A stretch of 30,104 nt of DNA from a virus. The translations under genes and the position numbers were made by a program. The notes beneath the pieces were generated by a model that searched no databases, was not told the DNA's origin, and saw nothing but the letters and a program-made list of their open reading frames with translations. Shown piece by piece: positions 879-27,494 of this stretch. The stretch is from the IMG/VR virus record IMGVR_UViG_3300047562_001695, positions 1-30,104 of that record. One strand, written 5' to 3'. Numbering within the stretch: position 1 is the first letter of the stretch; each line of letters starts with the position of its first letter.

Positions 879-2057
879 ATGCAAATAGAGAAAGTCCCGG
901 TGGGATCACTCGTGCTAGATCCTACCAATGCCAGAAAGCATGATCAGAAGAACCTAGAAGCCATCAAGGGAAGCCTTGCGAAGTTCGGCCAGCAGAAACC
1001 GATCGTCGTGACCGCTGACAACGTGGTGATCGCAGGCAATGGGACGCTAGAAGCTGCCAAGGCTCTTGGTTGGGAGAATATCGATATCCATCGGACGGTG
1101 CTGAAGGGAGCGGAGGCGATGGCGTACGCGCTGGCTGATAACCGCACAGCAGAACTTGCCGACTGGGATGATGAGATTTTAAAAGAGCAGATTGGTGCTC
1201 TTGCGATGGATGGATGGGACGTTGGTGACTTTGGTTTCGACCTAGATGATTTCGATCTCGATGCTGGCGGGACTGAGGGCAAGACCGATCCCGATGATGT
1301 GCCGGAAGTTGAGGAGAACAAGTTTGGCGTCAGCCGAGGACAGATTTGGCAGATTGGCGAGCATCGGCTTATGTGTGGGGATTCTACGAGTAAAGAGGAT
1401 GTTGATAGGCTTATGGGGGGTAATTTAGCTGATGTTTGGATAACTGATCCTCCTTATAACGTGGACTATGTTGGAAAGACCAAAGATTCTCTTAAGATAG
1501 AAAACGATATGATGAGCAATGAAAATTTTAGGTCTTTTCTGATTGAGGCTTTTAGTTCTGCCGTTCAGAGTATAAAGCCAGGTGGTGTTTTTTATATCTG
1601 GCATGCTGATAGCGAAGGGCTAAACTTTCGTGAGGCATGCTTTAAAGTTGGGTTAAAGGTCAGGCAGTGCCTTATTTGGTGCAAGGACGTTATGGTCATG
1701 GGGAGGCAGGACTACCACTGGAAACATGAGCCTTGCCTTTATGGTTGGAAAGACGGTGCTGGTCATCTTTGGGCCGCAGACAGAAAACAAACAACCATTC
1801 TAAACTTTGCTAGACCTAAACGTAACGATATACATCCAACGATGAAGCCTGTCGATCTAATAGAATACCAAATTAAAAACAACACAAAAGGCAAAGACCT
1901 AGTGCTTGATACATTCCTAGGCTCTGGCTCCACCCTCATCGCCTGCGAGAAAACAGGCCGCAAGTGCTACGGGATGGAAATCGACCCGCATTATTGCAGC
2001 GTGATAATTGAGAGGTGGCAGAACTTCACCGGCAAGGAGGCGACACGTCTTGGCTGA
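879..2057 (+). CDS. ParB-like domain / DNA methyltransferase fusion
   Basis: This 392-aa two-domain protein is of a type common in phages just upstream of the terminase. Residues 1-100 form a ParB/Srx-like N-terminal domain (NARKH..., then VIAGNGTLEAAKALG and ALADNRTAELADWD). An acidic linker (about 101-145) leads to an N6-adenine/N4-cytosine methyltransferase. Motif IV is DPPY at 190-193, and the SAM-binding motif FLGSGS follows near the C-terminus (346-351). Motif IV before motif I marks the beta class (N6_N4_Mtase family). It would methylate phage DNA, either to evade host restriction or for regulation; the target site cannot be read from sequence. The start has an AGGAAG ribosome site. 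The middle third (about 1370-1900) is more AT-rich, uses different codons and has fewer GATC sites than its flanks, suggesting a recombined segment. Confidence 0.9.
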   Translation: MQIEKVPVGSLVLDPTNARKHDQKNLEAIKGSLAKFGQQKPIVVTADNVVIAGNGTLEAAKALGWENIDIHRTVLKGAEAMAYALADNRTAELADWDDEILKEQIGALAMDGWDVGDFGFDLDDFDLDAGGTEGKTDPDDVPEVEENKFGVSRGQIWQIGEHRLMCGDSTSKEDVDRLMGGNLADVWITDPPYNVDYVGKTKDSLKIENDMMSNENFRSFLIEAFSSAVQSIKPGGVFYIWHADSEGLNFREACFKVGLKVRQCLIWCKDVMVMGRQDYHWKHEPCLYGWKDGAGHLWAADRKQTTILNFARPKRNDIHPTMKPVDLIEYQIKNNTKGKDLVLDTFLGSGSTLIACEKTGRKCYGMEIDPHYCSVIIERWQNFTGKEATRLG

Positions 2058-2400
2058 TCCAACTCAGAAACGACTGATAGATGAGAAAGAACTTCAGCAA
2101 GTCGAGAAGCTCGCCGGTCTCGGTTTGAATATGAAACAGATCGCTCACATCATCGGTGTCTGTAAGAAGACCTTAGAGCGTAGAATGCAGGACCAGCCTG
2201 AAGTAGCTGTCGCAGTAGAAAAGGGCAGGGCTCTTGCGATCGCCAAAGTTTCAAAGACTGCTTACGAGTTGGCGCTCTCTGGAAAGCATCCAGTAATGAC
2301 AATTTTCTTTCTGAAATGCAGAGCTGGATGGAGCGAGACCGATGCGGAAGATACTGAGCAGGAGAAATACAAGCCGCCCAAGAGCCTTCGACTGGCTTGA
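2050..2400 (+). CDS. terS: Terminase small subunit (TTG start)
   Basis: This 116-aa protein has an N-terminal helix-turn-helix (about residues 15-45: LAGLGLNMKQIAHIIGV) of the kind that recognises the packaging site. It lies directly upstream of the large terminase. The start is the TTG at 2050, because a strong AAGGAGG ribosome site at 2035-2041 sits just before it and it overlaps the methyltransferase stop. An upstream in-frame ATG at 2008 would bury the ribosome site in the gene and is less likely. The C-terminal half is charged and presumably mediates assembly and binding to the large subunit. The function rests on position and HTH, not on a strong family signature. Confidence 0.75.
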   Translation: MADPTQKRLIDEKELQQVEKLAGLGLNMKQIAHIIGVCKKTLERRMQDQPEVAVAVEKGRALAIAKVSKTAYELALSGKHPVMTIFFLKCRAGWSETDAEDTEQEKYKPPKSLRLA

Positions 2401-3644
2401 AAAGCAACCCGAAACAAGTTGCAGCTTTCAATGATACCGCACGAAACCGCTATCTCAATTGCGGTCGGCGTGGCGGGAAGACCTTCCTGATCGTCGAGGA
2501 ATTGCTTCGAGCGATCGACAGCTCCCCTTATCGCGGGGAAGTTGTTTACATCGGACCTACCAATTCTCATGCGAAAGAGCTGATATGGGAGCCGATCGAA
2601 GAAGCTCTCGATGAGATGGGTTGGCGATACAAGCCGATGGTAAGTAAGCAGCGGTTCGAGCTGATGGGGAAGCGAAAGATTTATGTGATCGGAGCTGAGA
2701 AGATTCAGAGAGTTCGCGGTCGCGCCTTGGTCTTTGCCGCTCTCGATGAGCTGGCTTATTTCTCAACAGATCTCAATGAGGTATGGCGAGCGATTCGACC
2801 GGCTCTCTCTGACCACAAGGGAAGGGCTTTGGCGGCTACGACTCCAGATGGGAAGGGGACGCAGGCTTATGAATGGTATGAGAAGGCCAAGAAGGATCCA
2901 GCCTGGAGCGTTCATGAGTGGTTGACGCTCGATAATCCATACATCGATCCAGACGAGATTGAAGACGCTAAGCGTGATCTCGATGAGAAATCCTTTCGTC
3001 AGGAATACATGGCGACTTGGGAGAGCTTCGAGGGGTTGGCTTATTACAACTTCGATGAGACGTTTCATGTGAAACAGCAAGTCCCAGTGAATCCCAGGAT
3101 CCCGATCCATCTCTGTTTCGACTTCAACGTGAATCCCACAACGCTCCTGGTGTCGCAGTTAGAAGGCGAGATGCTATCATACAAGCTGGAGTATTCTTTG
3201 AAGAACAGCTCGACCGAGGAGACCGTCAAACAATTCTGTGATGAATTTCAGAACCAAGCTGATTATATTAGAATCAAAATCAGGGGAGATTCTTCAGGGA
3301 AGGCAAGATCTTCAACGACAGGAAAGTCCGATTATCATTACATCGAGCAGATCCTTGCACAGCGGGGATTCCGATATGAGATGGAAGTGCTTCCTAAGAA
3401 TCCCCCGATTATCGACCGAGTGAAGCATGTGAACGGTTGGCTTCGACCAGTGGCAGGCAACCATCGTATAGAGATCGATCCTCAATGCGAGGAGCTCATC
3501 AGGGATCTGTCTTCCCAGCAGCTTAATGGAAGGCATCCAAGCGATAGGAACAACCTTGGGCACAAGGCTGACGCGATGGGTTACGATATCTTTTATCAAC
3601 AGAAAGTTGGCAGCAGACGAGCGAGCCGAACCTTGGAGTTGTGA
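2397..3644 (+). CDS. terL: Terminase large subunit (packaging ATPase/nuclease)
   Basis: This 415-aa DNA-packaging motor protein has a Walker A variant GRRGGKT at residues 23-29, and a Walker B strand ending in Asp117-Glu118 (ALVFAALDE). The coupling motif is ATTPDG near 147-152. The C-terminal RNase H-like nuclease carries Asp242 (CFDFNVNP), Asp298 (RGDSSG) and Asp391 (HKADAMG), the expected metal-binding acids. It hydrolyses ATP to move DNA into the procapsid and cuts concatemers. The start is a TTG overlapping the small-subunit TGA (TTGA). No good ribosome site precedes it, so translation is probably coupled. Its stop overlaps the portal start. The length is typical. Confidence 0.95.
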   Translation: MKSNPKQVAAFNDTARNRYLNCGRRGGKTFLIVEELLRAIDSSPYRGEVVYIGPTNSHAKELIWEPIEEALDEMGWRYKPMVSKQRFELMGKRKIYVIGAEKIQRVRGRALVFAALDELAYFSTDLNEVWRAIRPALSDHKGRALAATTPDGKGTQAYEWYEKAKKDPAWSVHEWLTLDNPYIDPDEIEDAKRDLDEKSFRQEYMATWESFEGLAYYNFDETFHVKQQVPVNPRIPIHLCFDFNVNPTTLLVSQLEGEMLSYKLEYSLKNSSTEETVKQFCDEFQNQADYIRIKIRGDSSGKARSSTTGKSDYHYIEQILAQRGFRYEMEVLPKNPPIIDRVKHVNGWLRPVAGNHRIEIDPQCEELIRDLSSQQLNGRHPSDRNNLGHKADAMGYDIFYQQKVGSRRASRTLEL

Positions 3645-5056
3645 TGGCACTGGCACAGGACGCGAAACAGATCATCGAGGAGATCGAGAAGAATACAAAT
3701 CTCCTCAACCAGAACAAAGACCTCTTCGAGATATTCGAGGGGCAGCTTCTCGATCACGTCGATGCGGCTCTCCGCTGCCAGCTCTCAGAACAGTCATATA
3801 TGCAGGCCCGTCACAGGATCGCGCCGATCAATGTTCTTCGCCGGATCATCGACAAGCTCTCCAAGATCTACCAGCAGTCGCCGACTAGGACAGTTATCGA
3901 TGGGACGGACCAGGATAAGGAGCTGCTCGCTTGGTACGAAAAGAAGCTCGGCATCAATGAGAAGATGAACCAATCGAACGAGTTCTCGAATCTCCAGAAA
4001 AATAACCTGATCGAAGTTTTTCTCGATGGCGATCAGCCAAAGATGAGAACAATCTCCGCTCATCAGTTCTGGATTTACTCGGATAACATGGTGGATCCGA
4101 CTGTCCCGACTCATATCGCGATCTTCGATTCTGATATGTCTGTCAAGAAGAACGATAGGAAGGCTGACAAGTTCAGGCTGTATACCGATGAAGAGTTCCT
4201 GATCGTCGATTCCGATGGGGATGTGATCCGGAGCGAGATGAACGAGATTGGGAATCAAGATGGAATCAACCCTTATGGGATCCTTCCATTCACGTATGTG
4301 AACACGAGCGCGAACTTGCTGGTTCCACTCCCTGATACTGATACTCTCGCGATGTCCGTTCTGATCCCGATCCTGCTTACGGATCTGAATCACGCCGTCC
4401 AATTCCAGAGCTTCTCAATGATGTATGGTATCGATGTAGACGTTCAAGATATCAAACGGGCTCCGAATGCTTTCCTCGATCTGAAGTCTGATCCAGCCAG
4501 CGATAAGACTCCGCAGATCGGATCCATCAAGCCACAAGTCGATATCGATCAGGTTCTCGGTCTGGTCGCATCTGAATTCTCTCTCTGGCTCAATACTCGC
4601 GGCATCAAGCCTGGATCCATCGGAGAGATGAATCGGGATAACTTCGCTTCCGGAGTTTCCAAAATGATCGATGAGATGGATGTCTCAGAGCATCGACAGA
4701 GACAGGTCACGATCTATCGAAACGTGGAAACTGATTTTTGGGATCGCCTGCTGAATCATATCCATCCATTTTGGGTCGCGAATGGGATGATCGAGAATAG
4801 GCATATCTTCTCCCCGAACGCTCGCGTCGAGACCAACTTCAAGCCCCAAGTTCCGCTCCTGCGTCGAGGAGATCTTATCAGAGAGCTTCAAGCTGAGATG
4901 ATGGCAGGCTTCACGACTCGGAAAAGAGCGATCAAGATCTTGAATCCACAAATGGCGGATGATGAGATCGAGGATCTGATGAGAGAAATCGATAGCGAAA
5001 ACATGATTACGGTGGATTCCAATGGCTTGGCAACGGACGAGGATAGTTCTTCCTGA
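3644..5056 (+). CDS. Portal protein (SPP1 gp6-like)
   Basis: This 470-aa protein resembles the SPP1-type portal family (Phage_prot_Gp6). It has an N-terminal helical stretch followed by RHRIAPINVLRRIIDKLSKIYQQSP (quoted in part), a beta-rich wing (about 110-230) with the motif HQFWIYSDN, and the long helical stem and crown with PLLRRGDL and a C-terminal acidic tail. Portals form the dodecameric vertex through which DNA is packaged and on which neck and tail assemble. The ATG at 3644 overlaps the terminase TGA by one base; a GTG one codon earlier (3641) is an alternative. Position directly after the large terminase is canonical. GATC sites are very dense here (13 in the first 600 bases). Confidence 0.9.
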   Translation: MALAQDAKQIIEEIEKNTNLLNQNKDLFEIFEGQLLDHVDAALRCQLSEQSYMQARHRIAPINVLRRIIDKLSKIYQQSPTRTVIDGTDQDKELLAWYEKKLGINEKMNQSNEFSNLQKNNLIEVFLDGDQPKMRTISAHQFWIYSDNMVDPTVPTHIAIFDSDMSVKKNDRKADKFRLYTDEEFLIVDSDGDVIRSEMNEIGNQDGINPYGILPFTYVNTSANLLVPLPDTDTLAMSVLIPILLTDLNHAVQFQSFSMMYGIDVDVQDIKRAPNAFLDLKSDPASDKTPQIGSIKPQVDIDQVLGLVASEFSLWLNTRGIKPGSIGEMNRDNFASGVSKMIDEMDVSEHRQRQVTIYRNVETDFWDRLLNHIHPFWVANGMIENRHIFSPNARVETNFKPQVPLLRRGDLIRELQAEMMAGFTTRKRAIKILNPQMADDEIEDLMREIDSENMITVDSNGLATDEDSSS

Positions 5057-5453
5057 GAGATATTCAAAGCAGGACCGGGAAGCGATCGCATCTGAGATCA
5101 TCGATCACATCCGAGAGCGTTCCCAGTCAGGAAAAGGTTTCAATCCTGAAACTGGAAGAAACAAGAAATTTGTTAGGTACTCCAAGGAATACGCAAAGTT
5201 CAAGGGAGTTTCCAGATCAGATGTCGATCTGACTCTCTCTGATACCATGCTGCGGGATATGCGGCTCCTCTCTGATAAGCCAGATTCTCTGCTGATCGGA
5301 TTCGAGAATGGAACGGAATCCAATGCCAAGGCGGAGGGAAATCAGATAGGTTCGTATGGAAGATCAGCAGATCCATCCAAAGCCCGCCCCTTTTTGGGGA
5401 TAACCCAGGCGGATCTGAGAAGAATCCTCGAAAAGTATGATGAGGTAGAGTGA
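5022..5453 (+). CDS. Neck / virion morphogenesis protein, 143 aa
   Basis: This 143-aa protein overlaps the portal end by 35 bases in another frame. Its features are IASEIIDHIRERSQSGKGFN, then FVRYSKEYAKFKG, VDLTLSDTMLRDM, IGFENGTESNAKAEGN and a terminal FLGITQADLRRILEKY. They resemble the HK97 gp10-like/virion-morphogenesis group of neck or tail-completion proteins. That assignment is from recall of the family pattern and from position between portal and scaffold. The ribosome site is weak, so coupling to portal translation is likely. The next gene is a second protein of the same broad type, so the pair may act together at the head-tail joint. Confidence 0.6.
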   Translation: MAWQRTRIVLPERYSKQDREAIASEIIDHIRERSQSGKGFNPETGRNKKFVRYSKEYAKFKGVSRSDVDLTLSDTMLRDMRLLSDKPDSLLIGFENGTESNAKAEGNQIGSYGRSADPSKARPFLGITQADLRRILEKYDEVE

Positions 5454-5454
5454 G

Positions 5455-5955: not shown

Positions 5956-5974
5956 TCCCATGGAGGGGGAATCA

Positions 5975-6610: not shown

Positions 6611-6632
6611 CTGATAGGAAAGGAATCTTATT

Positions 6633-7472
6633 ATGGCTGACATGGGCAAAACAGAAACCGCTGCCACGGCGGAAGAACGGATTAGTGCTGAAATCCAGAT
6701 GCAACTCATCGAAGTTAGCAAGCTGGTTCCAACTGTTCAGGATTTCTCGTCTATGGCTACTAAAGGCGTAGACGTTATTAAGGTACCTAGAGCTGGCGAT
6801 TTCACTGTCGACGACAAGGCGGAAAACGTCGCTGTCACCGCACAGGTAATCACTTATGCGACTGACAACATGAATTTGGATAAATACAAAGTTATCCAAG
6901 TTCTTTTGGAAGATGATGCGGAGCTTGATTCAAAGCCTGACATTGTTGCGGACATCATCGGACGTATGGCTCGCGGTATCGCTTTGCAGGTAGATACAGA
7001 CATCGTAGCCGCTCTTGCTGCTACTTCTGCTGCTGCGCCAGATCATCGCATTGCATACGCCAACGCGTCGACTCTAGGTAAGGCTGACATTTTGGAAGCT
7101 CGCCGATTGCTTCACGAGCAGAATGTCCCTTTTAATGAATGCTACATCGGTGTTTCTCCTGCATCAGAAAAAGCATTGCTTGCGATTGACGACTTCGTTC
7201 ATGCTGACAAATATGGCAGCGCTGAAGGCCTTCGCAATGGAGAGCTTGGCCGGTTGTACGGAGCTCCAGTAATCATGTCTAATGAGTTTGGAGACAATGC
7301 CACTCTGGTATGGCATCCCACACACGTTGGATTCGCTATGCACAAGATGGCATCTTTTGAAACCGATCGACAGCTTGAAAAGTTGGCGACTCTCTACTCT
7401 GTTTCTCAGAAGTATGGAACGCTGACAATGGACAGTGGAAAGCGCGGTGTTCTATTAGGGTCTGCTTCCTAA
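6633..7472 (+). CDS. Major capsid protein (HK97-like fold)
   Basis: This 279-aa protein follows the scaffold and carries capsid-like features: an N-terminal helix (ISAEIQMQLIEVSKLVP), the DVIKVPRAGDFTV segment, and a central helical spine (PDIVADIIGRMARGIALQVDTDIVAAL). Near residues 155-240 come LEARRLLHEQNVPF..., YIGVSP, LYGAPVIMSN and the C-terminal SQKYGTLTMDSGKRGVLLGS. This matches the short HK97-fold capsid proteins of the phage P22/N4-like 'coat' type. AAAGGA precedes the start. Codon use differs from the packaging genes and GATC sites are few (1 in 600 bases counted), consistent with high expression or a different recent ancestry. Confidence 0.9.
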   Translation: MADMGKTETAATAEERISAEIQMQLIEVSKLVPTVQDFSSMATKGVDVIKVPRAGDFTVDDKAENVAVTAQVITYATDNMNLDKYKVIQVLLEDDAELDSKPDIVADIIGRMARGIALQVDTDIVAALAATSAAAPDHRIAYANASTLGKADILEARRLLHEQNVPFNECYIGVSPASEKALLAIDDFVHADKYGSAEGLRNGELGRLYGAPVIMSNEFGDNATLVWHPTHVGFAMHKMASFETDRQLEKLATLYSVSQKYGTLTMDSGKRGVLLGSAS

Positions 7473-7494
7473 TAAAGCCAACGTTTAGAAGTTT

Positions 7495-7511
7495 GGGGGC
7501 TATTTGCCCCC
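7495..7511 (+). terminator. GC-rich hairpin after the capsid gene
   Basis: GGGGGC (7495-7500) and GCCCCC (7506-7511) form a perfect 6-bp stem with a TATTT loop, 23 bases after the capsid stop. It lacks a T-tract, so it is not a strong intrinsic terminator. It may attenuate transcription or stabilise the abundant capsid mRNA. Confidence 0.4.
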
Positions 7512-7533
7512 TAGCTTCGTTGCTGAGGTTTCA

Positions 7534-8170: not shown

Positions 8171-8173
8171 AAT

Positions 8174-8518: not shown

Positions 8519-8534
8519 TTTAAGGAAGTTCACA

Positions 8535-10784: not shown

Positions 10785-10791
10785 TCAAAAG

Positions 10792-10822
10792 GGCGGGGCT
10801 CTATTTGTGATGGGGCCTCGCC
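10792..10822 (+). terminator. GC-rich hairpin after the beta-helix gene
   Basis: GGCGGGGC (10792-10799) pairs with GCCTCGCC (10815-10822), with one G-U wobble, eight bases after the beta-helix stop; a few more wobble pairs extend it. It is followed by TATCAAAAAAA rather than a T-tract, so it is probably an attenuator or mRNA-processing/stability element, not a full terminator. Confidence 0.35.
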
Positions 10823-10842
10823 TATCAAAAAAAGGTAGATAG

Positions 10843-11709: not shown

Positions 11710-11711
11710 CT

Positions 11712-12170: not shown

Positions 12171-12183
12171 GGAGTTGCTAACG

Positions 12184-14191: not shown

Positions 14192-14379
14192 AGACTGAGG
14201 CTCTGCCGATTGTTTCTGAATACATGACCAGGAAGCGATTGGCGGAGCTTGGATATACAAGTCCAATGTCGGATCTTCCAGATTGGAAGGCAAGGTGTTT
14301 TGTTCTGATCAGCTCATACATCGACGAGCTGGTAGCGAAAGAGAACAAGAAACGATCCAAGAATGGTAAGGGGAGATGA
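13787..14379 (+). CDS. Tail assembly chaperone, -1 frameshift fusion (GT-like)
   Basis: Reading frame 0 to 14134 and then -1 from 14134 gives an open frame to the TGA at 14377-14379, a predicted 197-aa product (116 G residues plus 81 T residues). The T part reads VSPATIKRQVAANFRGHR, then LPIVSEYMTRKRLAELGY, DLPDWKARCFVLISSYID and a basic end. It has no start codon or ribosome site of its own, and its stop overlaps the tape-measure ATG. This is the lambda gpG/gpGT arrangement. In that family the T part contacts tube protein while G spots the tape measure. Confidence 0.85.
14128..14134 (+). other. Programmed -1 ribosomal frameshift site GGGAAAG
   Basis: The zero-frame codons are GGA (14129-14131) and AAG (14132-14134), preceded by G, giving G GGA AAG, the same heptamer as in lambda gene G. 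Tandem slippage re-pairs on GGG and AAA. The zero frame stops 55 bases downstream, while the -1 frame stays open to 14379 and contains T-like sequence. Confidence 0.9.
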
Positions 14380-16931
14380 TGGCAGATATCAACTTCGACT
14401 TAGAGATAGATGTCAAAGGCGCCCAGCAATCTCTGAAGAGATTGGAAAGTGTCGGGACAGCGACTTTCGCTGCTCTTGGAACTGCTGCTGCTGCCGTCTC
14501 TGCTGCCTTCGCTGGCCAACAGATCTTTTCTGGAATTAAATCGGTAACTGAAGCCGCTGGTGTCCAAGAGGATGCGATAAAGCGACTGAATACAGCGCTC
14601 TCCCTGGCTGGTGATTTCAGCGAAGATGCAAGCAAACGGCTCCAAGATTTTGCATCAGAACTCCAAGTCTCCACTGGCATCGGAGACGAAACCACAATTG
14701 GATTGTTGGCTCTCGCGAAATCCTTCAACCTGACTAACGAGGAAGCCGAGAAGCTCGTTTCTGCTGCCGCCGATCTTTCTGCTCAGACAGGGATGGAGCT
14801 TGAAGGAGCTGTCAGAAATCTCGGTAAATCTTTTAGCGGGTTGGCTGGTGAGCTTGGGGAGTCAGTCGCAGGAATTCGCGATCTTACGAAAGAGCAATTG
14901 AAAGCTGGAGGAGCGATTGATCTCGTCGCGAGCCGATTCGGGGGAGCCGCTGCTGCTGCTGCTCAGACATATTCAGGATCCATCAGATCTCTTTCTGGGA
15001 ACTTCGGAGATCTACAGGAGGAGCTTGGATTCCTGATCACGAAGAATCCGATCGTGATCAAGCTGATCAATGAAACATCCAAAGCCTTTAGGGAACTTGG
15101 GAAGTTCATTTCTAAGAATTCGGACGATATCAAAGATGGCCTAAATGATGGATTGATCGGTATCGTCAAGTCAGCTCCAAAAGTGATCAGGGGTATCGGA
15201 TCTATCGCGAAGATCGTCATCGAACTTGCAAAGCAATTTAACAACCTCGATTCTCTGCTCTCTGGTTTCTTCGCTGATCTTATCGAATCGACAGAAGATG
15301 TAGGTGAAGCCTTTAAGATCCTAACATCTCCGATCAAGGGCTTTGTTCTCGGTTTGATCGAAGTTGAGAAATTTGTTCAAAGACAAGCTTTGGATGATCT
15401 TGAGGAGCAAGCGCAGACCACTAGAGAAGCTCTCGCAAAGATCGAGGATCTTTTCACGAAAGGAAAAATATCCACGGAGGGATACCGTACAGCGGTCAAG
15501 AATGCAGAGGAGAGACTTGCTACTTTCGAGAAACAGATCGAAGGAGTTAATAGCGAGATAGCGATACTGAATGAAGCTGGAAAGCAAGTCGCTATTGAGA
15601 TTGATATTGATGCGAAAAAGCTACAAGAAGATCTCCAAGTCAGAGTGACTCAGGCTGAGATAAAAGCCGTAAAGCTGGAGGGAGCGGAAAAGATAATCGA
15701 TGATGCTGTTCAGAAGTTCAGCGAAGCCGCTTTCAACGCTGCGGATGCTCTTGAGGGAGCAGGGAACAACCTCAGAACAATACCAGTTCCCCAGCCTGGA
15801 GATATCAACTTTGTTGGTCCGCTCCCAGAATTTCGAGATACATCTAGCCAGGAGGGAGCGAAGGACTTCATCGGACCACAAATCGATCCGGCAGATCTAG
15901 CAAAGCGACGAGATGCAGAGAAGAAAGCACAGGAAGCAGAATCAAAGCGCTTGGAAGGGATATTGGTCAGAGCTGGCGGTCAGTTCGTGAACAGTATTCT
16001 GAAAGGAGCTGATGGCGCAAGGCAAGCTGTAGCAGGCTTGGGCGGATCGATTGCAGAAGTTCTGATCCCAGGAGCAGGCGGCTTTGTAACAGCTTTCATC
16101 GATCAGATCGTACAGCTTGGTCCTGAAGGGATCACGCAGGTGATTAACGAATTCGTCACTGCTTTGCCTGTCGTGATCGAAGCTCTCGCTGAAGCCATGC
16201 CTGTTGTGGCTATCGCCATCGCGCAGAATGCCGATGAAATCATCATCGCTCTTGTAAGAGCTGCTCCGAGGATCATCGAGGAGCTTGTCAAAGCAGCTCC
16301 ACAGATCGCTTCTGAATTGATCCTTTCCTTAAAAGATCTGATCATTGGACTGGGTCCTGAGCTCGCAAGCGTATTCAAGTTTCTGATCGGCGCCCCATTG
16401 CAATCATTCATTGATGATCTAAGTGGAATCGATGTGGCACAAGAAATCGAGAATGCGGGACAGGCTTTCGCTGATGCAGTTTCTCCTGTGACTAATGCTC
16501 TCTCTACAATCGCCTCCGCATTCACCGATCTTCTGGACAGAATAAATCGATCTCTAGGTGGGGGATCCAAAGGATTTGCGACTGGAGGGTCTGATCTGGA
16601 GAGAGCCATCAAAGGATCTATCCCAGGACTCGCGACAGGCGGTTTGGTTGGTGGATCCGGATCAGGAGATACGCAGCTTTTCAGGCTTGAACCTGGCGAG
16701 CTGGTTATCGACCGATCGACATCTGGCAGGCTTCTGGATTTCGTCAACAGATCAGAGCGCGGAGCAACGCAAGGCGATCCTAATAATGAGATGGTCGTGA
16801 TGGTTCTCGCTCAGATCTTATCTGCTCTTCAGCAGCCGATGAACGTAGAAACCACAGCAGAGATTGATGGAGAAGCTCTTGCCAATATTCTGCTAAGATT
16901 GAATCGAACAGATGCGAGAACTAGCGCATGA
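14376..16931 (+). CDS. Tape measure protein, 851 aa
   Basis: The long, mainly helical, Ala-rich protein follows the GT pair and is the longest gene in the window, as expected for a tail-length ruler. It begins MMADINFDLEIDVKGAQQSLKRLESVG, a usual start for the family (quoted in part), followed by an Ala-rich hydrophobic stretch (about 30-50). Coiled-coil regions occupy about 330-560. A hydrophobic/amphipathic zone lies at about 580-680 (ALPVVIEALAEAMPVVAIAIAQ), which in this family may contact or cross the host membrane. A Gly/Ser-rich part precedes the conserved end 'ATGG...F.LEPGELVIDR' near 780. ATG at 14376 or the adjacent ATG at 14379 may be used. GATC density is extreme (17 in 600 bases). 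Confidence 0.95.
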   Translation: MMADINFDLEIDVKGAQQSLKRLESVGTATFAALGTAAAAVSAAFAGQQIFSGIKSVTEAAGVQEDAIKRLNTALSLAGDFSEDASKRLQDFASELQVSTGIGDETTIGLLALAKSFNLTNEEAEKLVSAAADLSAQTGMELEGAVRNLGKSFSGLAGELGESVAGIRDLTKEQLKAGGAIDLVASRFGGAAAAAAQTYSGSIRSLSGNFGDLQEELGFLITKNPIVIKLINETSKAFRELGKFISKNSDDIKDGLNDGLIGIVKSAPKVIRGIGSIAKIVIELAKQFNNLDSLLSGFFADLIESTEDVGEAFKILTSPIKGFVLGLIEVEKFVQRQALDDLEEQAQTTREALAKIEDLFTKGKISTEGYRTAVKNAEERLATFEKQIEGVNSEIAILNEAGKQVAIEIDIDAKKLQEDLQVRVTQAEIKAVKLEGAEKIIDDAVQKFSEAAFNAADALEGAGNNLRTIPVPQPGDINFVGPLPEFRDTSSQEGAKDFIGPQIDPADLAKRRDAEKKAQEAESKRLEGILVRAGGQFVNSILKGADGARQAVAGLGGSIAEVLIPGAGGFVTAFIDQIVQLGPEGITQVINEFVTALPVVIEALAEAMPVVAIAIAQNADEIIIALVRAAPRIIEELVKAAPQIASELILSLKDLIIGLGPELASVFKFLIGAPLQSFIDDLSGIDVAQEIENAGQAFADAVSPVTNALSTIASAFTDLLDRINRSLGGGSKGFATGGSDLERAIKGSIPGLATGGLVGGSGSGDTQLFRLEPGELVIDRSTSGRLLDFVNRSERGATQGDPNNEMVVMVLAQILSALQQPMNVETTAEIDGEALANILLRLNRTDARTSA

Positions 16932-20756: not shown

Positions 20757-21070
20757 TGGCAGGTGAAATTAAAACGCTTGAGTTCAGCGAAGGAGTTAGC
20801 GTCGTATCTCCTGTTACTATATTTCAATTTTTTGAATTGGAAGATGATTCAGGGGATTGGGATGGTGCTACATCTACGAAAACCTATGACGTTTCGGCAA
20901 CAATTTCTGATGCCAGAAAAATGGATTGGTCATTTCAGGATGCAGCAAACAATCGAAGGGTCCTGCAAGGGGCAGATATAGATTTCCCTTCCGCGACTCA
21001 AGTTCGTGTCTCTTTTGGTGTAAATATACCTTCAGGTACTTACTGGCTAATAGGAGTCGGCGCAGGATGA
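20756..21070 (+). CDS. Small beta-rich virion protein, 104 aa
   Basis: This 104-aa protein starts at TAATG and ends in the ATGA of the fibre gene. It contains DVSATISDARKMDWSF and TQVRVSFGVNIPSGTYWLIGVGAG and looks like a small beta-sandwich. Strict overlaps on both sides tie it to the fibre gene. The function is unknown; it may be a fibre connector or assembly factor. Confidence 0.55.
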   Translation: MAGEIKTLEFSEGVSVVSPVTIFQFFELEDDSGDWDGATSTKTYDVSATISDARKMDWSFQDAANNRRVLQGADIDFPSATQVRVSFGVNIPSGTYWLIGVGAG

Positions 21071-23376
21071 AAAATCGATATGGTTTAGAGAGAGCAGCAA
21101 CAAACTTTAAATGGTGGATCATAGGAGTTTTCAGCGTCATTGCGATCGGCACTGCTTCTGCTATGTATGTAGGCGGTGAGCTTGAATCTGCATTGTTTGA
21201 AAAACTGGCGACTGATCCAACGGGGACTGAAGGCCAAGTTTATTACAATACCACAGAGAAAAAAGCTAAGCTTTACAATGGATCTGCTTGGACTGATTTC
21301 GGCAGTGGTGATGGAGCTGCTGGAGCTGGCGAAATTAATTACAATGATGACCCAGATGGTGCTTCTAATTGGACGGAATTAGGGGACGGCGTAACTGTCA
21401 GTACGACAGTTGTGGAAACAGAAATCCCACGTTGGCCCATTAAAACTCAAGCCGTCAAGCTTACCAATGACACCACGGGGACTTCCGGTTGGTCGGTATG
21501 CGTCGAGGTTGGCGAGGCCGACCGAAACAAGAAACTCAAGATTGAGTGGGCGCAAATCATTTCAACATCGCCAGCCTATTCGAGCGGCGAGTTTACCTAC
21601 CAGCTATTTAGCGAAACGAACGACACCTGTACGGGCACCGAAACCGGCGTCACGTTACATAGCAGCGGCACCACGTCGGCAGTAGCGATCCCGGCGCAAA
21701 ACGGCGTCATGTATGACGAGTTCGACGCGGATGACTCTCAGTATTACGAATTGAAGTTCGTTCGCGCAAGCGGTGCATCGGCGTCGTTTATCGGCATCAA
21801 TGACTTGGTTATCGGACCCGGCAAACTTCACAGCGGCGCGGTGGTTACGGCGTGGGAAGATGCTTCCGACTTAACTATATCTGGTTTCGGCACTGTAACT
21901 AGTAACCAGCTAATAAAAAGAAGGGTCGGAGAGAACCTAGAAGTATTCGGTAGATTTACAACTGGAACGGTGGCGGCTTCGACCGCATCTATCGCTTATC
22001 CTAATAGCGATACTTTAGCCACGATATTAAGTGCTAACGCGGTTGTTGGTAAGTGGTGGAGTAATGTTATTACTGCAACGACTGTAAAAACAGGTACGAT
22101 ATACTCTAGTTCTTCTAATGTCCGCTTTGGTAATGACGACTACACTACTGCATCAGGCCCGGGGACGTCATTAGACGGCAACGAAGTAACCGTTTCCTCA
22201 ACTATTGTATGGGTTAAATACAGCGTTCCGCTGGCTTCATATCAAGGCTCCGGCGTTCTCAACACCATTACACAAGATAACCTTTCGGAGTGGTCTGATG
22301 CTTCTGTTTCTGTTTCTGGTGCAGGAACTTCACCGACTGTTGTGGCCAAGAAAAGAAGAATGGGAGATGAGTTAGAACTTGATCTTTCAGTTATACTTAA
22401 CGCAACCCCGTCAGGCATATTGACATTCACTTTACCTGATAACTTAGTGGCTGACACAAATAAGATGAGAGCGTCCCCCGCTGGCTCTACTTCTGCGTAC
22501 TGGTCTGCCAGAGGTAATGCGAGGTACTTAGATGTTAGCGCTTCTCCCGATAACGGTTATACGGGCAACCCTATAATAAACAATACTAATAAGTCGCAAA
22601 TCCAAGTTCTTTCGTTTGATTCAGGTGGCGCGGAGAATTTGTGGGGGACGACCAACAATGCACCAGTAGCTCCTGCATCGGGGGACGTTGTACACATATA
22701 CGCAAAGATTCCAGTTACTGCTTATGCAGGCTCCCAGTCTTCGCTGGTGGGGTTTACCGCTGCAAGCGAAACGCAAAGCGGGCTGGTTAGTACGGGCACC
22801 CAGACCTTTGGGGGCTCAAAAACCTTCGAGACAAATGCGCTTTATGTCGATCCCGCAACCGGTAGTTTCACCAACATTTATTTTCAAAACAATGATATTT
22901 CCGAAACTGGATTTCGGATAGGCATCGGCAGCGATGAACAGGCTTATTTGGTTAACTCAGAAAACACAGATATGAATTTTTGGACTAACGATATTTCTAG
23001 AATGACGATTGCCAGCGATGGCAACGTAACGATTAACCAGAATCTTAAGGTCACTGACTTTCTTAGGATTGGAAATGAGTCAGAACTGACAATTTCAAGC
23101 GGCACTGTTACGGCTACCAGCTCTTATCATACAATTGATACCGAGGGCGACGCTGCTACGGATGACTTAACTAATATAAACGGTTGTAGTACAGCGTCGG
23201 ATTTGGGGAAAATCCTAATTCTTAGAACAGCAACGTCAGCCCGTGACACCACGGTTAAAGATTCGGCTGGCAATTTACAAATAGCAGGCGATTTCGCGAT
23301 GAGTCAAAGTCAATACCGTCTTGTCTTAATGTGTTCCGGCACTACATGGTTTGAATTGTCGAGGTCTGTAAACTGA
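21067..23376 (+). CDS. Tail fibre-like protein with an apparent signal sequence, 769 aa
   Basis: The ATG at 21067 overlaps the previous stop (ATGA). After a basic start comes a hydrophobic stretch (residues about 16-29, WWIIGVFSVIAIG) ending TASA, which looks like a Sec signal peptide or anchor and is unusual for a virion fibre. Residues 47-80 hold the fibre module 'GQVYYNTTEKKAKLYNGSAWTD'. Residues 262-398 and 409-560 are two diverged copies of one domain (W-DAS-KRR-G-LE...YS.P...Y.GS). Then come TQTFGGSKTF (about 578-587) and a C-terminal domain with DLGKILILRTATSAR, AGNLQIAGDFAM and WFELSRSVN, typical of fibre tips. Base composition changes along the gene: 21430-21860 is GC-rich, 21870-22730 is not, and both have few GATC sites. 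Receptor binding is the likely role. Confidence 0.75.
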   Translation: MKNRYGLERAATNFKWWIIGVFSVIAIGTASAMYVGGELESALFEKLATDPTGTEGQVYYNTTEKKAKLYNGSAWTDFGSGDGAAGAGEINYNDDPDGASNWTELGDGVTVSTTVVETEIPRWPIKTQAVKLTNDTTGTSGWSVCVEVGEADRNKKLKIEWAQIISTSPAYSSGEFTYQLFSETNDTCTGTETGVTLHSSGTTSAVAIPAQNGVMYDEFDADDSQYYELKFVRASGASASFIGINDLVIGPGKLHSGAVVTAWEDASDLTISGFGTVTSNQLIKRRVGENLEVFGRFTTGTVAASTASIAYPNSDTLATILSANAVVGKWWSNVITATTVKTGTIYSSSSNVRFGNDDYTTASGPGTSLDGNEVTVSSTIVWVKYSVPLASYQGSGVLNTITQDNLSEWSDASVSVSGAGTSPTVVAKKRRMGDELELDLSVILNATPSGILTFTLPDNLVADTNKMRASPAGSTSAYWSARGNARYLDVSASPDNGYTGNPIINNTNKSQIQVLSFDSGGAENLWGTTNNAPVAPASGDVVHIYAKIPVTAYAGSQSSLVGFTAASETQSGLVSTGTQTFGGSKTFETNALYVDPATGSFTNIYFQNNDISETGFRIGIGSDEQAYLVNSENTDMNFWTNDISRMTIASDGNVTINQNLKVTDFLRIGNESELTISSGTVTATSSYHTIDTEGDAATDDLTNINGCSTASDLGKILILRTATSARDTTVKDSAGNLQIAGDFAMSQSQYRLVLMCSGTTWFELSRSVN

Positions 23377-23450
23377 TGAAACCCCTCAACCTCACATTGA
23401 TTTGCCTGCTTGCTTCGTGTTCGACTCCGAAGGAGGGTAGCGGATATTGA
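23376..23450 (+). CDS. Tiny lipoprotein, 24 aa
   Basis: The ATG shares one base with the fibre stop (TGATG). It encodes a basic start (MKPLN), a hydrophobic stretch and the lipobox LASC with the cysteine at residue 15, leaving a mature lipopeptide of only ten residues rich in Ser, Gly and Pro. This is a full lipoprotein signal in a 24-residue gene. Phage-encoded small lipoproteins act as outer-membrane spanins (Rz1-like) or superinfection-exclusion factors. The mature part is very short for a spanin, so either role is speculative. It lies 13 bases before a second lipoprotein gene. Confidence 0.55.
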   Translation: MKPLNLTLICLLASCSTPKEGSGY

Positions 23451-23463
23451 TAGGAGTTAACCC

Positions 23464-24414
23464 GTGAAAAATATTTTAATAATCTTAATCCTAGCAGCCT
23501 GCGCAACCAACGGAGGCGATCGAAAGAATGAGAAGCGCAATCCTAGCGATGATATACAGGCGGCTTACTCTCAGGCAGTTGATCGTCTTAAAAATGATTT
23601 CTCTGAAAATGGCTGGATTGTTTCGCGCCATCAAGACGGGAACACGGAGCACGAAGGCGATTCGCTGATCTGGACTGGGTTGGCGATGGCTTCACTTCCC
23701 TGCGCAGATGGCGAGATGTTCTCGCGGCGGATGGCGAGGATGATCGACGAAAACGATGGCGCCATGGTTCGCTATGAGCCGCTAGGGGAATACGCTGGCG
23801 GGAGAGAGATCAGCTTCGATGGAGCGACAGGGCTTTATTTCGGGATATTCCAACGGATCCGCCAATGCCCAGATGAAGCGCAGATATGGAAAGCGACATG
23901 GCAGAATCACCTAACCTATCTGGAAGAAAATAACTGGAAGCTGCATCCAAACGCCGACGCCCTTGTTGCCCCTCCTTTCAATGTGATCCGCGATTACATC
24001 AGCTACCAGCTTGGGCTGACTGACGATATCCCCTCAGGCGTTCGCTTGCGATCCCTGGAAGCCGCAGCATTGACCTGGTCCTCTGCTGTGATCGAGAGCA
24101 AGAGCAGTTGCTTTCGCGTCCATCTCGCTTTCCTCTATATGCTTTTCCTCGATGATGCGGATCTAATGCTAGAAACGGCTTATGATGGATTCTGCTATGC
24201 GACAGAAGAAGCAGATATTCCAGCCATAGACCATTGGTGCGATCGAAAGAACATCGACGATTGGATCAAGACTTTTGAATATGATCTCTACGAGTACCGG
24301 CATCAACGTTGTGGCGGTTGGGAAAAGCCGGATGGGAAATCCCTCAAAACACCAGGATTGGATCTGATCTTTGGGATTCAGCTCGCCTATCCAGAGGTTC
24401 TAAATGGAAATTAG
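23464..24414 (+). CDS. Phage-encoded lipoprotein with a predicted helical enzyme-like domain, 316 aa (GTG start)
   Basis: The GTG at 23464 follows TAGGAG at a good distance. A short signal ends in the lipobox LAAC (cysteine at residue 13), so export and lipid anchoring are predicted. The mature part (about 300 aa) is rich in Trp, Tyr, Glu and Asp and has amphipathic helices (SLIWTGLAMASLPC, DGATGLYFGIFQRIRQC, WQNHLTYLEENNWKL, HLAFLYMLFLDDADLML). This suggests an all-alpha toroid like that of some glycosidases, although I see no proven catalytic set. Eleven cysteines, unusual for a phage protein, fit an exported environment. It lies between the fibre and lysis genes. Possible roles are cell-surface modification, exclusion of other phages, or saccharide hydrolysis. 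Confidence 0.6.
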   Translation: MKNILIILILAACATNGGDRKNEKRNPSDDIQAAYSQAVDRLKNDFSENGWIVSRHQDGNTEHEGDSLIWTGLAMASLPCADGEMFSRRMARMIDENDGAMVRYEPLGEYAGGREISFDGATGLYFGIFQRIRQCPDEAQIWKATWQNHLTYLEENNWKLHPNADALVAPPFNVIRDYISYQLGLTDDIPSGVRLRSLEAAALTWSSAVIESKSSCFRVHLAFLYMLFLDDADLMLETAYDGFCYATEEADIPAIDHWCDRKNIDDWIKTFEYDLYEYRHQRCGGWEKPDGKSLKTPGLDLIFGIQLAYPEVLNGN

Positions 24415-24658
24415 TTGGCAAACTCTCCAGATCATTGCTTCGATCGTGAGCGCGACAACGGTGATCGTCTGGCGTGTCGCGAAAGCCGCTGCGGATCTCC
24501 AGAAGATGTTGGCAGATCTGGATAAGAAAGTGGCCATCTTGGAGACAAAGACAACCAATGTCACGCATGATCATGATCTACTTGTACTTACTGCACAGAA
24601 AAGCGATGCCGCACATAGACGGCTCGATGAGCTTTACGAAAGGGCAGGAAATGAGTGA
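24404..24658 (+). CDS. Membrane-anchored coiled-coil protein, 84 aa (i-spanin or holin-associated type)
   Basis: It overlaps the lipoprotein end by 11 bases. An N-terminal hydrophobic helix (residues about 6-24, TLQIIASIVSATTVIVW) is followed by a heptad-patterned charged region (about 27-80, LQKMLADLDKKVAILETK...). One N-terminal span plus a coiled coil matches an inner-membrane spanin or an XhlA-type lysis protein. It directly precedes and overlaps the putative holin gene, which supports a lysis role. Confidence 0.6.
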   Translation: MEISWQTLQIIASIVSATTVIVWRVAKAAADLQKMLADLDKKVAILETKTTNVTHDHDLLVLTAQKSDAAHRRLDELYERAGNE

Positions 24659-24857
24659 AGACAAGAATCCGGAAGGTAAGCCATTTTGGAAGTCGAAGCG
24701 CTTTTATGCAACTCTTCTGACTGCTGTTCTGCCATTGGTTCCGCCGATCGCAGATTTCGCAGCGAAATATCCTGAGATGTATTCCGCGATACTCGCTGCT
24801 GTGTTCGGTTGGGTTGGCCTGAAGACCACCGAGCCAGTTCGCCTAAAGATGAAATGA
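24651..24857 (+). CDS. Putative holin, 68 aa
   Basis: The ATG at 24651 follows GGGCAGGAA and lies eight bases inside the previous gene. The 68-aa protein has a basic N-terminus (KSKRFY), one hydrophobic segment (YATLLTAVLPLVPPIADF), a short loop with charged residues (AAKYPEM), a second hydrophobic segment (YSAILAAVFGWVGL) and a basic tail (PVRLKMK). Two spans with charged ends fit a class II holin, which would release the cytoplasmic M15 peptidase at lysis. It is the last gene of the rightward late run before the regulator promoter. Confidence 0.7.
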   Translation: MSEDKNPEGKPFWKSKRFYATLLTAVLPLVPPIADFAAKYPEMYSAILAAVFGWVGLKTTEPVRLKMK

Positions 24858-24880
24858 TCCAGAACTGCGCATAATTTGTT

Positions 24881-24909
24881 TTGACTTCTGCGCACCCTAC
24901 GATTATAGA
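24881..24909 (+). promoter_or_regulatory. Sigma70 promoter for the ribbon-helix-helix gene
   Basis: TTGACT (24881-24886) and TATAGA (24904-24909) are separated by exactly 17 bases, with a start predicted near 24916 and the gene's ribosome site and ATG following at 24930-24946. This is one of the two best sigma70 matches in the window. Confidence 0.75.
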
Positions 24910-24943
24910 TATGACTCACCTTGACCACAGGAGGGAATTATCT

Positions 24944-25225
24944 ATGTCTTTATCTTTAGATGAGTATTTCGAGAGCCTATCTCCGAAGCATCAAAAGCAA
25001 TTCTGTGAAGTGATGGAATTCGCTATTCCAGAGAGAAAGGATCAGAAGCGGATCAGCGTCTTTCTCGATGTCGATCTTTTGGAGCGAATCGAAGCCGATG
25101 CGGAAGGCCATGGCGTATCGAAGGGGATTTATATCAATGCCGCGATTCGTGGATATTACGGTTTGATCCAATCGTTGAGTGATCTCAATGCGAGATTGGA
25201 AGGCGTAGATGCAACAAACAACTAA
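24944..25225 (+). CDS. Ribbon-helix-helix DNA-binding regulator, 93 aa
   Basis: The ATG at 24944 is preceded by AGGAGGG at optimal spacing; the longer upstream frame would start inside the promoter and is rejected. Residues about 36-72 form an Arc/CopG-type ribbon-helix-helix: a beta strand (RISVFLDVD), a helix (LLERIEADAEGHG), a turn and a second helix (SKGIYINAAIRGYYGL). The N-terminal 30 residues (LDEYFESLSPKHQKQF) form a helical extension. It has its own promoter and terminator and so is a free-standing regulator between the lysis and recombination modules. Its operator is not known; autoregulation is plausible. Confidence 0.75.
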   Translation: MSLSLDEYFESLSPKHQKQFCEVMEFAIPERKDQKRISVFLDVDLLERIEADAEGHGVSKGIYINAAIRGYYGLIQSLSDLNARLEGVDATNN

Positions 25226-25295
25226 GCAGCGAATCAAGGCGGAACAGCTTTGGCGACTCTCGCGATAGAATCCTCCATCATCGAATCAAAAACAA

Positions 25296-25321
25296 CCCCG
25301 GTCTTGGCCGGGGATTTTTTT
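25296..25321. terminator. Bidirectional intrinsic terminator
   Basis: CCCCGG (25296-25301) pairs with CCGGGG (25308-25313) around a 6-base loop and is followed on the plus strand by ATTTTTTT (T-run 25315-25321). On the minus strand the hairpin is followed by TTGTTTTTG, so it can end both the rightward regulator transcript and the leftward SSB operon. Confidence 0.85.
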
Positions 25322-25721
25322 AAAAAGGGATTGTATCCAGGGATGGATCGGAGCTTGGCGGCTCCTTGGCTTCTGGCTGGAACCCGCCGGACGATCTCCT
25401 CGCCTCAGCTTCCTTCCTAGATTCCATCGAAATCTTGTCAATATTCTTGCATTTCAACCGAAATCCCATCGATCCATCCTTCTTCTGGAAAGTCTCATGA
25501 TCCATCGATCCGCTGACGATCACCCTCCCTCCCTTATCAAGATACTGGCTCATCGTTTCCGCTCGCTTCCCCCATAGATCGCAATCAACCCAAAGCGTCT
25601 CACGATCCTTGCCAGGAGAATGTCCAATTGTGAAATTGAGAACCCTCTGCCCGTCGTGAATCGACTTCAATTCCGGCTTCCCTGCTATATATCCCTCAAT
25701 CGTCCAAACATTCATTGCCAT
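25320..25721 (-). CDS. ssb: Single-stranded DNA-binding protein
   Basis: This 133-aa OB-fold SSB has an N-terminal strand (MNVWTIEGYIAGKPEL), LNFTIGHSP, LWVDCDLWGKRAE, the loop LDKGGRVIVSGSM and KNIDKI. A Gly/Ser/Pro-rich tail ends in DTIPF, which keeps the acidic-hydrophobic tip (D-x-I-P-F) that recruits partner proteins. It coats single strands during replication and recombination. AGGAGGAAATGAG precedes the ATG. It is the last gene of the leftward recombination operon, starting one base after the upstream stop, and ends at the bidirectional terminator. Confidence 0.92.
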   Translation of the reverse strand: MAMNVWTIEGYIAGKPELKSIHDGQRVLNFTIGHSPGKDRETLWVDCDLWGKRAETMSQYLDKGGRVIVSGSMDHETFQKKDGSMGFRLKCKNIDKISMESRKEAEARRSSGGFQPEAKEPPSSDPSLDTIPF

Positions 25722-25722
25722 C

Positions 25723-25872
25723 TCATTTCCTCCTGAGTTCTTCTGCGAATTGTTTCTTGCCGCATTTCTTGCACGTCTTGGTTACGACAACATCTCCAGA
25801 GATGAAGAGTTCTGTCGACCAAATCCAATCGTGCATACAAAAGTATTTCCTGATCAGCTCTTTGAGCGTCAC
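25723..25872 (-). CDS. Small zinc-ribbon protein, 49 aa (GTG start)
   Basis: The GTG overlaps the TGA of the preceding gene, and its own stop is one base before the SSB start. It encodes 49 residues with a Cys at 12, His at 14 (YFCMHDW), then a CxxC knuckle (TCKKCGKKQF, Cys34 and Cys37). One Cys-x-His plus Cys-x-x-Cys set fits a structural zinc site. The protein is otherwise basic. Such small zinc proteins are frequent in phage early operons; a DNA- or protein-binding accessory role to SSB and the recombinase is inferred. Confidence 0.65.
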   Translation of the reverse strand: MTLKELIRKYFCMHDWIWSTELFISGDVVVTKTCKKCGKKQFAEELRRK

Positions 25873-25994
25873 TTCTTCGACTCCAGCTCCAGGTGCCTCC
25901 TATAGATCCGCCAAAAGATCCAGCAGACCAAAGAGACAGCAGAGAATCCTCCCGCGAGAAATCCGACGAGAAGATGAATCAGTTCCATGTTCAT
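25869..25994 (-). CDS. Small membrane protein in the recombination operon, 41 aa
   Basis: The ATG at 25994 overlaps the TGA of the RecT-like gene (ATGA) after GGAGGAGGA; a second in-frame ATG at 25988 is an alternative. The product (MNMELIHLLVGFLAGG..., quoted in part) has one strong hydrophobic span (residues about 5-26) and a positively charged end (WRIYRRHLELESKK). Coupling on both sides supports it as real. Why a membrane protein sits between recombinase and SSB is unclear. It could tether the replication/recombination complex or act on the host membrane; nothing in sequence decides. Confidence 0.6.
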   Translation of the reverse strand: MNMELIHLLVGFLAGGFSAVSLVCWIFWRIYRRHLELESKK

Positions 25995-26722
25995 GATTCC
26001 TCCTCCTGCGGCTTGTACTTCTCATAGACGATTTTCTCGACATCAGACATGCAGACTTCGAGATCCTGGATCTGAACAGACAGGAGCTTCCAATCGTCTT
26101 CTGGGACGTTGTAATCTTGGAAAAGTTTTAGCAGATCTCGCTTCTGCTCTGGAGTCCCTCGATAGATATGATTAGCTGGCTCAAGTTGCGGATCCGATGC
26201 TTCAGATTCAACATCGATCACTTCCCCATCCTGGTTTACAACAGCTCCCAATTCTTCAGGGACATAGGAAACCCCAGCGATACAATCTGGGAACATGGAT
26301 CGAGCCATTTCTGAGACGCATCGAGAGCGGAGCATCGCTCGCGGATATTTCTTCCAAGATGGATTCCCAAGAAGCTGGGCTGTCCTTGCATCTTCCATAG
26401 AGAATGAGAATCGAGCGATCTTGTGCCCAGGTCGCGACGCCTCGATCACACAGATTTCATTCGTCAGCTCGATGAAGTTCACGACGGCTCCTGGGCAATG
26501 TCGATAGATCTGCGCGAGCATGAGTTCTGCTGACATTGTTGGCTTGCCCTTGATCACGTGGATATGCGAGAGAGCCTGCATCGGAGGGATCTGGAGCTCC
26601 TGCCCCTTCTGCATGATCACGATCGCCTGCTCTGGCGTCTTGATCGCATCTGGCAGAAATCCAGATTTCAGATAGACTGCGGCCTGCTGCTTCATTTCAT
26701 GGAACGGAACTAATTGGCTCAA
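25991..26722 (-). CDS. recT: RecT-like single-strand annealing recombinase
   Basis: This 243-aa protein carries the pattern of phage RecT/DUF-type annealing proteins: LKSGFLPDAIKTPEQAIVIMQKG, then QELQIPPMQALSHIHVIKGKPTMSAELMLA (quoted in part), and further on PRAMLRSRCVSEMARSMFPD. The C-terminal 60 residues are acidic and variable. Members pair complementary single strands and drive phage recombination. It overlaps the upstream exonuclease by four bases and couples to the membrane protein downstream. No RecE/YqaJ-type 5'-3' exonuclease gene is present in the window. Confidence 0.88.
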   Translation of the reverse strand: MSQLVPFHEMKQQAAVYLKSGFLPDAIKTPEQAIVIMQKGQELQIPPMQALSHIHVIKGKPTMSAELMLAQIYRHCPGAVVNFIELTNEICVIEASRPGHKIARFSFSMEDARTAQLLGNPSWKKYPRAMLRSRCVSEMARSMFPDCIAGVSYVPEELGAVVNQDGEVIDVESEASDPQLEPANHIYRGTPEQKRDLLKLFQDYNVPEDDWKLLSVQIQDLEVCMSDVEKIVYEKYKPQEEES

Positions 26723-27348
26723 TGAATACCTCCATTCATTCCAGACGTGATATCTAGATAGATTCTTTCGGTCGATTGCACGTCTTGGCGATTGTATTTC
26801 TCGATCAGATCGATCTCATTATTCTCCCACCATTCAAAGCACTGTGTCGCGTCCTTCTCTCCATCACGCTGGATCTGGAGGCACCATTCTATATCCTTCA
26901 ATGAAGCTCGCTGAATGCTGCGTCCGGTTCCAAAGAAGCCTTGGATATCGACGTGACGACGAAGCAGCCACTCAGGCACAGAAAGTCCATTCGCCAAGTG
27001 GCGCCCCACAAGATAAGGCTGATCAAAATCGATATTGTTCTTGCCCACGAATTCATTAACGTCTTTCCCTGCGATGAATACATCGAGATCAGAAAGCAGA
27101 TCCCGCTCATTATCCGCACAGAAGAAATGAAAATCGCCGTTGTAAGAGATTCCACAGGCAATCACCCTTCCAGTGATCCAGCGGAGAGCTGCTTTCTCCC
27201 GCTCCGCCTCCCTCTTGTCTTCGATCGACTTCGCGATCTTTTCAGGATCTTTGAGCCTAGCATCTGGCTTGAACTCCTTTTGATCAAGATATTCCTCGAT
27301 CCGATCGGACTTGTACGTCTCGATATCGTAAACCAAATAATTCCTCAT
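26719..27348 (-). CDS. DEDDy-type 3'-5' exonuclease (PolB-exonuclease-like)
   Basis: This 209-aa DnaQ-superfamily exonuclease resembles stand-alone PolB-like proofreading domains. Motif I is YDIETY (Asp8, Glu10), motif II is NNIDFDQPYL (Asp109 after Phe108), and motif III is YNRQDV with Tyr185 and Asp189 in the Y-x3-D spacing of the DEDDy subgroup. An inserted charged region (about 13-58, including DPEKI and a Lys/Glu-rich helix) precedes WITGRVIACGISYNG. It would degrade 3' ends, two metal ions being held by the four acids. It is the second gene of the operon, starting in an ATGA overlap with the zinc-knuckle gene, and overlaps the RecT start. Confidence 0.85.
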   Translation of the reverse strand: MRNYLVYDIETYKSDRIEEYLDQKEFKPDARLKDPEKIAKSIEDKREAEREKAALRWITGRVIACGISYNGDFHFFCADNERDLLSDLDVFIAGKDVNEFVGKNNIDFDQPYLVGRHLANGLSVPEWLLRRHVDIQGFFGTGRSIQRASLKDIEWCLQIQRDGEKDATQCFEWWENNEIDLIEKYNRQDVQSTERIYLDITSGMNGGIH

Positions 27349-27494
27349 GCGTTGCTAACCTCCACCTGTCCTTCCACCCAGCAACAATCGCACACTGGAT
27401 CGGGCTCAAGATCGACAATCGATCCGGCTCGATCATCCAGTATCCAAGCATCGCGCACACCGCAGCGAGCGCATTCATAAAACTTTGTTGACAT
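27345..27494 (-). CDS. Small zinc-knuckle protein, first gene of the leftward operon, 49 aa
   Basis: The ATG at 27494 follows GGAGGAATC, and the stop overlaps the exonuclease ATG. The 49-aa acidic protein has two cysteine clusters: FYECARCGV (Cys8, Cys11) and VCDCCWVEG (Cys35, Cys37, Cys38), a likely zinc knuckle. It is too short and unusual to place in a family. Its start codon lies directly downstream of the -35 box of the opposing promoter, so the opposite regulator's transcription should interfere with this gene. Confidence 0.65.
   Translation of the reverse strand: MSTKFYECARCGVRDAWILDDRAGSIVDLEPDPVCDCCWVEGQVEVSNA

Follow-up and report, generated by a model that had tools for sequence, protein, structure and literature searches.

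Abundance of the tetramer GATC in a 30,104-base virus record and its relation to protein content, codon choice and short-word bias

GATC avoidance is well described in phages whose hosts restrict GATC (PMC6286503; HF1-group haloviruses, PMC7230728). An excess of the word is known from the mycobacteriophages of subcluster B3, which carry GATC genome-wide at about four times expectation while related subclusters are without it; there, no modification has been identified, and GATC usage still rises and falls locally along the genome (PMC4841201). Phage-encoded modification of the site has been demonstrated for the lactococcal phage Phi93, whose Dam enzyme was shown experimentally to methylate GATC and to stop cleavage by DpnII (PMC4190342). 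For marine prophages with orphan methyltransferases, motif frequency has been discussed as a sign of absent restriction or of regulation (PMC12570018).

GATC counts and null models

Here we analysed the virus record IMGVR_UViG_3300047562_001695 over its whole length of 30,104 bases (GC 47.3%), referred to as the window. GATC is its most frequent tetramer. The 366 occurrences are 3.1 times the 117 that a mononucleotide model of its base composition predicts, and the density of 12.2 per kb compares with a median of 4.2, a 95th percentile of 7.3 and a maximum of 11.1 per kb across 97 gathered viral loci. An earlier sequence-only reading had counted 13 sites at 3661–4260, 17 at 15001–15600, 13 at 26041–26640, and one each at 6661–7260 and 21901–22500, and all five counts are exact; the 5–7-fold enrichment that it derived holds for the densest stretches measured against equal bases and not for the window as a whole. 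The excess is confirmed as a real and strong compositional anomaly. Within genes the density is 12.6 per kb, about twice that outside them (6.7 per kb), which speaks against regulatory GATC clusters between genes. The flanks are even (GGATCC 21, AGATCT 22, TGATCA 19 and CGATCG 26 occurrences), ruling out a longer motif such as GGATCC, RGATCY or a HIP1-like word, and the enriched word is plain GATC.

A ladder of null models was run on the 33 annotated genes, which comprise 28,038 coding bases and 353 GATC. Random synonymous codons, preserving the protein only, yield 149 expected sites, and shuffling each gene's own synonymous codons yields 254 (z 9.7), although GATC could in turn have influenced the codon usage on which this permutation relies. 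With codon usage and junction dinucleotides fitted and Gibbs-sampled, 278 sites are expected (observed/expected ratio, O/E, 1.27; z 7.3); with codons and junction trinucleotides the expectation reaches 329 (O/E 1.07, z 2.6, GATC at rank 3), trinucleotide models absorbing part of GATC itself and bounding the cause rather than splitting cause from effect. A plain second-order Markov model of the whole window expects 361 of the 366 sites, and the maximum-order Markov O/E is 1.01 on one strand and 1.00 on both. Among the 256 tetramers GATC is the top over-used word under codon permutation (z 9.3) and likewise ranks first under the codon and junction dinucleotide model. A within-gene junction-preserving permutation (331 expected) was set aside as too restrictive, contexts being near-frozen in short genes, and a pseudo-likelihood test (LR chi2 52), which counts each junction twice, was replaced by the Gibbs simulation.

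Most of the excess stems from the proteins and their codon usage, and most of the remainder from short-word bias, which leaves an unexplained GATC surplus of 7–27% whose size depends on the model. The codon choice in question is a preference for GAT (78% of Asp codons) and ATC (56% of Ile codons), and the dinucleotide rho values are 1.33 for GA/TC, 1.16 for AT and 0.62 for TA; CGAT, ATCG and TCGA are raised together with GATC. Among the three causes the sequence-only reading had proposed (a similarly biased host, methylation at GATC, or codon choice of GAT and ATC), codon choice is the best supported, with protein and codon usage yielding 254 of the 353 coding sites. The same reading had named disappearance of the enrichment under codon and dinucleotide control as what would refute it: most of the enrichment is explained in this way, but a surplus of 1.27-fold beyond dinucleotides and 1.07-fold beyond trinucleotides stays. 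Other words in the window genes deviate downwards, GGCC and GTAC reaching 0.55 and CCTC 0.58 of the codon-permutation expectation, and GGCC is low under the trinucleotide model as well.

On balance we consider it probable that the abundance of GATC is a by-product of the lineage's protein, codon and short-word signature, without counter-selection against the word. Synonymous sites of the lineage would have drifted towards GA, TC and AT steps, with Asp encoded by GAT, Ile by ATC, AT preceded by G and TC by GA; this signature probably matches that of the phage's host, and recent hosts would exert no selection against GATC. Most sites would then simply follow from the protein, its codons and the short-word bias, a small surplus specific to GATC coming in addition, and modules would differ because their genes differ in amino-acid content and codon usage, without any change in what GATC does. 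This reading draws on the null ladder, on the between-gene heterogeneity that vanishes under within-gene permutation, and on a close relative whose orthologs use GATC in the opposite way. As to the host, terminase and portal searches of 84,980 genomes gave no match, and no tRNA genes were found in the window.

Differences between genes

The genes at issue are the following; G001 and G002 are close relatives of the window, a group that was found by terminase and portal searches in IMG/VR only.

879..2057, + strand, ParB-like domain and beta-class N6/N4 DNA methyltransferase (PF01555, 8.8e-27; phrog_498, 3.2e-151)
3641..5056, + strand, portal gene, named by position and synteny (orthologs in G001 and G002 at 67–68%)
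6633..7472, + strand, major capsid protein gene (PF19821, 2.2e-11; phrog_267, 2e-29)
14376..16931, + strand, tape-measure gene (phrog_5493, 1.5e-8)
21064..23376, + strand, probable tail fibre gene (36% identity to its G002 counterpart)
25991..26722, − strand, RecT-like annealing protein gene (phrog_561, 1.3e-29)
26719..27348, − strand, PolB-type 3'-5' exonuclease / RNase H-like gene (PF13482, 1.8e-8)

GATC is unevenly distributed among genes by length (chi2 96.2, df 32, p 2e-8), and the heterogeneity persists under one genome-wide codon model (p 0.005, the smallest value possible with 200 simulations). It is gone under within-gene codon permutation: per-gene counts against codon-shuffled sequences, one form of the check that the sequence-only reading had proposed, lose the between-gene contrast once each gene keeps its own codons (p=0.26). 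The surplus itself is present in most genes and is thus genome-wide, not a property of one region. At the dense end, the portal gene holds 32 GATC (22.6 per kb; codon usage z 9.0; Pfam and PHROG searches without match) and the exonuclease gene 14 (22.2 per kb). The tape-measure gene has 50 (19.6 per kb) against 31 under the codon and dinucleotide model, the largest synonymous surplus of any gene, and the RecT gene 14 against 6.4 expected, with Ile encoded by ATC in 16 of 16 codons (codon usage z 5.8). At the sparse end, 7 sites in the fibre gene compare with 17 expected from genome-wide codon usage and 7.5 from its own (codon usage z 10.8), and 9 in the methyltransferase gene with 15 under the genome-wide codon model (codon usage z 5.5). 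Gene by gene, GATC tracks the rho of GA (GA/TC), which is 1.80 in the portal, 1.62 in the RecT, 1.53 in the tape-measure, 1.09 in the capsid and 0.95 in the fibre gene.

The sequence-only reading had suggested that the GATC-poor modules were acquired recently. Recent acquisition, from genomes lacking the bias, we regard as unlikely overall, and its standing differs from gene to gene. The capsid gene is not a recent arrival, because its orthologs in G001 and G002 are syntenic and 78–80% identical (~79%), as well conserved as terL, and are just as poor in the word: the capsid genes of all three carry 1–3 GATC each, with 2.0–2.5 expected from the protein alone. It is GATC-poor because its protein offers few places, random codons for the window's capsid protein giving 2.0 sites where 2 are found. 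The fibre and methyltransferase genes may be newer, judging from their deviant codon usage and low GA rho, from the distance between the fibre and the G002 gene, and from the locus upstream of terS, which holds different genes in G002, G008 and G003. Deviant codon usage is, however, equally a feature of the GATC-dense portal and RecT genes, where it runs in the direction opposite to that of the fibre and methyltransferase genes. A modular reading finds no support beyond what proteins and codons explain.

Close relatives and the ParB-methyltransferase

Where an identical dipeptide is conserved and could be encoded with GATC, the word is present in 54–57% of cases in the window, in 35% each in G001 and G007 and in 14% in G002. 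In G002, whose terL is 76% identical to that of the window, GATC is the most avoided of the 256 words (O/E 0.51, z −5.7), which we infer to reflect restriction at GATC. Judged from two comparisons, with G001 and G007 as reference, GATC appears to have been gained in the window and lost in G002. This comparative contrast is a useful new fact, and its G002 part is the most worth following: syntenic orthologs that differ as 55% to 14% at the same dipeptides are a natural contrast, in which one can test whether a phage switches from avoidance to tolerance of a site, or back, when it gains or loses a methyltransferase or a host that restricts the site. Searches for phage relatives with the portal, tail protein, primase and lipoprotein returned none, and capsid matches were distant only (<30%).

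The gene order in G002 (L005:5405-11248) is primase, nuclease, M15 peptidase, terS, terL. The two ends of the window (28048-30102 and 257-2400) are neighbours there, and the window is therefore probably a near-complete, circularly permuted genome. Downstream of the fibre gene, a putative lipoprotein (window 23464-24414; L005:576-1535) is conserved and 57% identical in G002; it has no Pfam, PHROG or phage-collection match.

Selection on the phage to match the GATC density of a host that modifies or uses the word (Dam, phosphorothioation) appears distinctly unlikely. It would accommodate the GATC-specific synonymous surplus of 1.27 beyond codons and junction dinucleotides, and haloarchaeal genomes with a cognate methylase have been reported to over-represent GATC (PMC7230728). 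However, the residual falls to 1.07 beyond trinucleotides, the DNA between genes, the expected place for regulatory sites, is poorer in GATC, and a Psychromonas prophage from sea ice has fewer GATC than its Dam-like host (PMC12570018).

The phage's own enzyme is another conceivable source: if the ParB-methyltransferase modified GATC, restriction there would be irrelevant and the word could rise freely or be favoured. The gene product has an N-terminal ParB-like part and C-terminal beta-class methyltransferase motifs (DPPY, TRD, GSGST), lies upstream of the small terminase gene and matches, besides phrog_498, PADLOC MTase_II PDLC03229 over its full length (6e-116). Among the window ORFs scanned, several of which are without any match, there was no match to a restriction enzyme or to 7-deazaguanine and similar hypermodification genes. 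The methyltransferase family has no match in G002, which avoids GATC more than any other word and has an HNH homing-type nuclease in its place, and G001, with GATC usage at neutral level, shows the C-terminal 45 residues of a similar enzyme where its contig ends beside terS. Vibrio phage D93, whose enzyme is, of those compared, the closest to the window's in the catalytic and recognition region, has GATC as its top word (O/E 1.32–1.53), and structures of DpnA (GATC) are among the PDB relatives of the catalytic domain. Nevertheless, carriers of similar enzymes span O/E values from 0.23 to 1.53 (LT996074 0.23, TMW P1 0.75, Javan178 0.86, the gut phage MT835973 0.86, CR191 1.11), and Javan178, MT835973 and LT996074, GATC-neutral or -avoiding, are close to the window's recognition region as is D93. 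The contig L082, with a 53–54% identical enzyme of a sister subgroup, has no GATC in 12 kb, and viral loci that carry a methyltransferase are no richer in GATC than the others (p=0.70). Moreover, the methyltransferase-less close relative is a single one, and relief from avoidance would predict an O/E near 1, not a surplus. The carrier comparison thus lends no support to a GATC specificity of the enzyme, and we judge this explanation improbable; literature on streptococcal prophage orphan methyltransferases gives no target sequence. The protective or signalling methylation proposed earlier finds no support either, given carriers of closely similar methyltransferases without common enrichment and GATC half as dense outside genes. 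Improbable as well is positive synonymous selection for GATC through a per-site benefit of a phage or host modification (methylation or phosphorothioation), with the methyltransferase-less sister lineage pushed the opposite way by restriction.

Gene content varies between the small terminase gene and the M15 peptidase, where the latter is seen (window 622-2400; L005:9161-9658, L187:5279-6722, L004:8596-9594): the window has the ParB-methyltransferase there, G002 the HNH nuclease, G008 a separate ParB-like gene with a Dcm-like methyltransferase after it, and G003 a methyltransferase with a similar C-terminus and a different middle part. In contig L083, which bears a methyltransferase, the top word is GGCC, over-used about two-fold (z 7.9), and GATC is over-used with it. 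Zero GATC is found in several viral contigs of about 10–20 kb (L082, L021, L049, L050, L061, L064, L069, L081 and L149); the genes of L021 are also without ACGT, CGCG, GCGC, GGCC and TCGA, which suggests strong multi-site restriction pressure.

Comparison with known systems

An anomaly of this kind is already known, with subcluster B3 as its published precedent (PMC4841201). As in B3, the GATC excess of the window is genome-wide and well above composition, and close relatives are without it. B3 over-uses GGATCC too, whereas the 21 GGATCC of the window are no more than the other NGATCN palindromes (19–26); in addition, the surplus of the window has been split by codon models, and its close relative G002 actively avoids GATC. 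The ParB-methyltransferase belongs, by its full-length match, to the orphan family phrog_498 and, like its counterparts in several relatives, adjoins the small terminase gene. With Phi93 the window shares a phage-encoded methyltransferase near packaging genes, but its enzyme is a beta-class ParB fusion, in contrast to the Phi93 Dam. G002 and several zero-GATC contigs fit the pattern of GATC-avoiding phages, to which the window is opposite in sign. The case shows what share of an apparent restriction-site anomaly can be ordinary codon and short-word bias.
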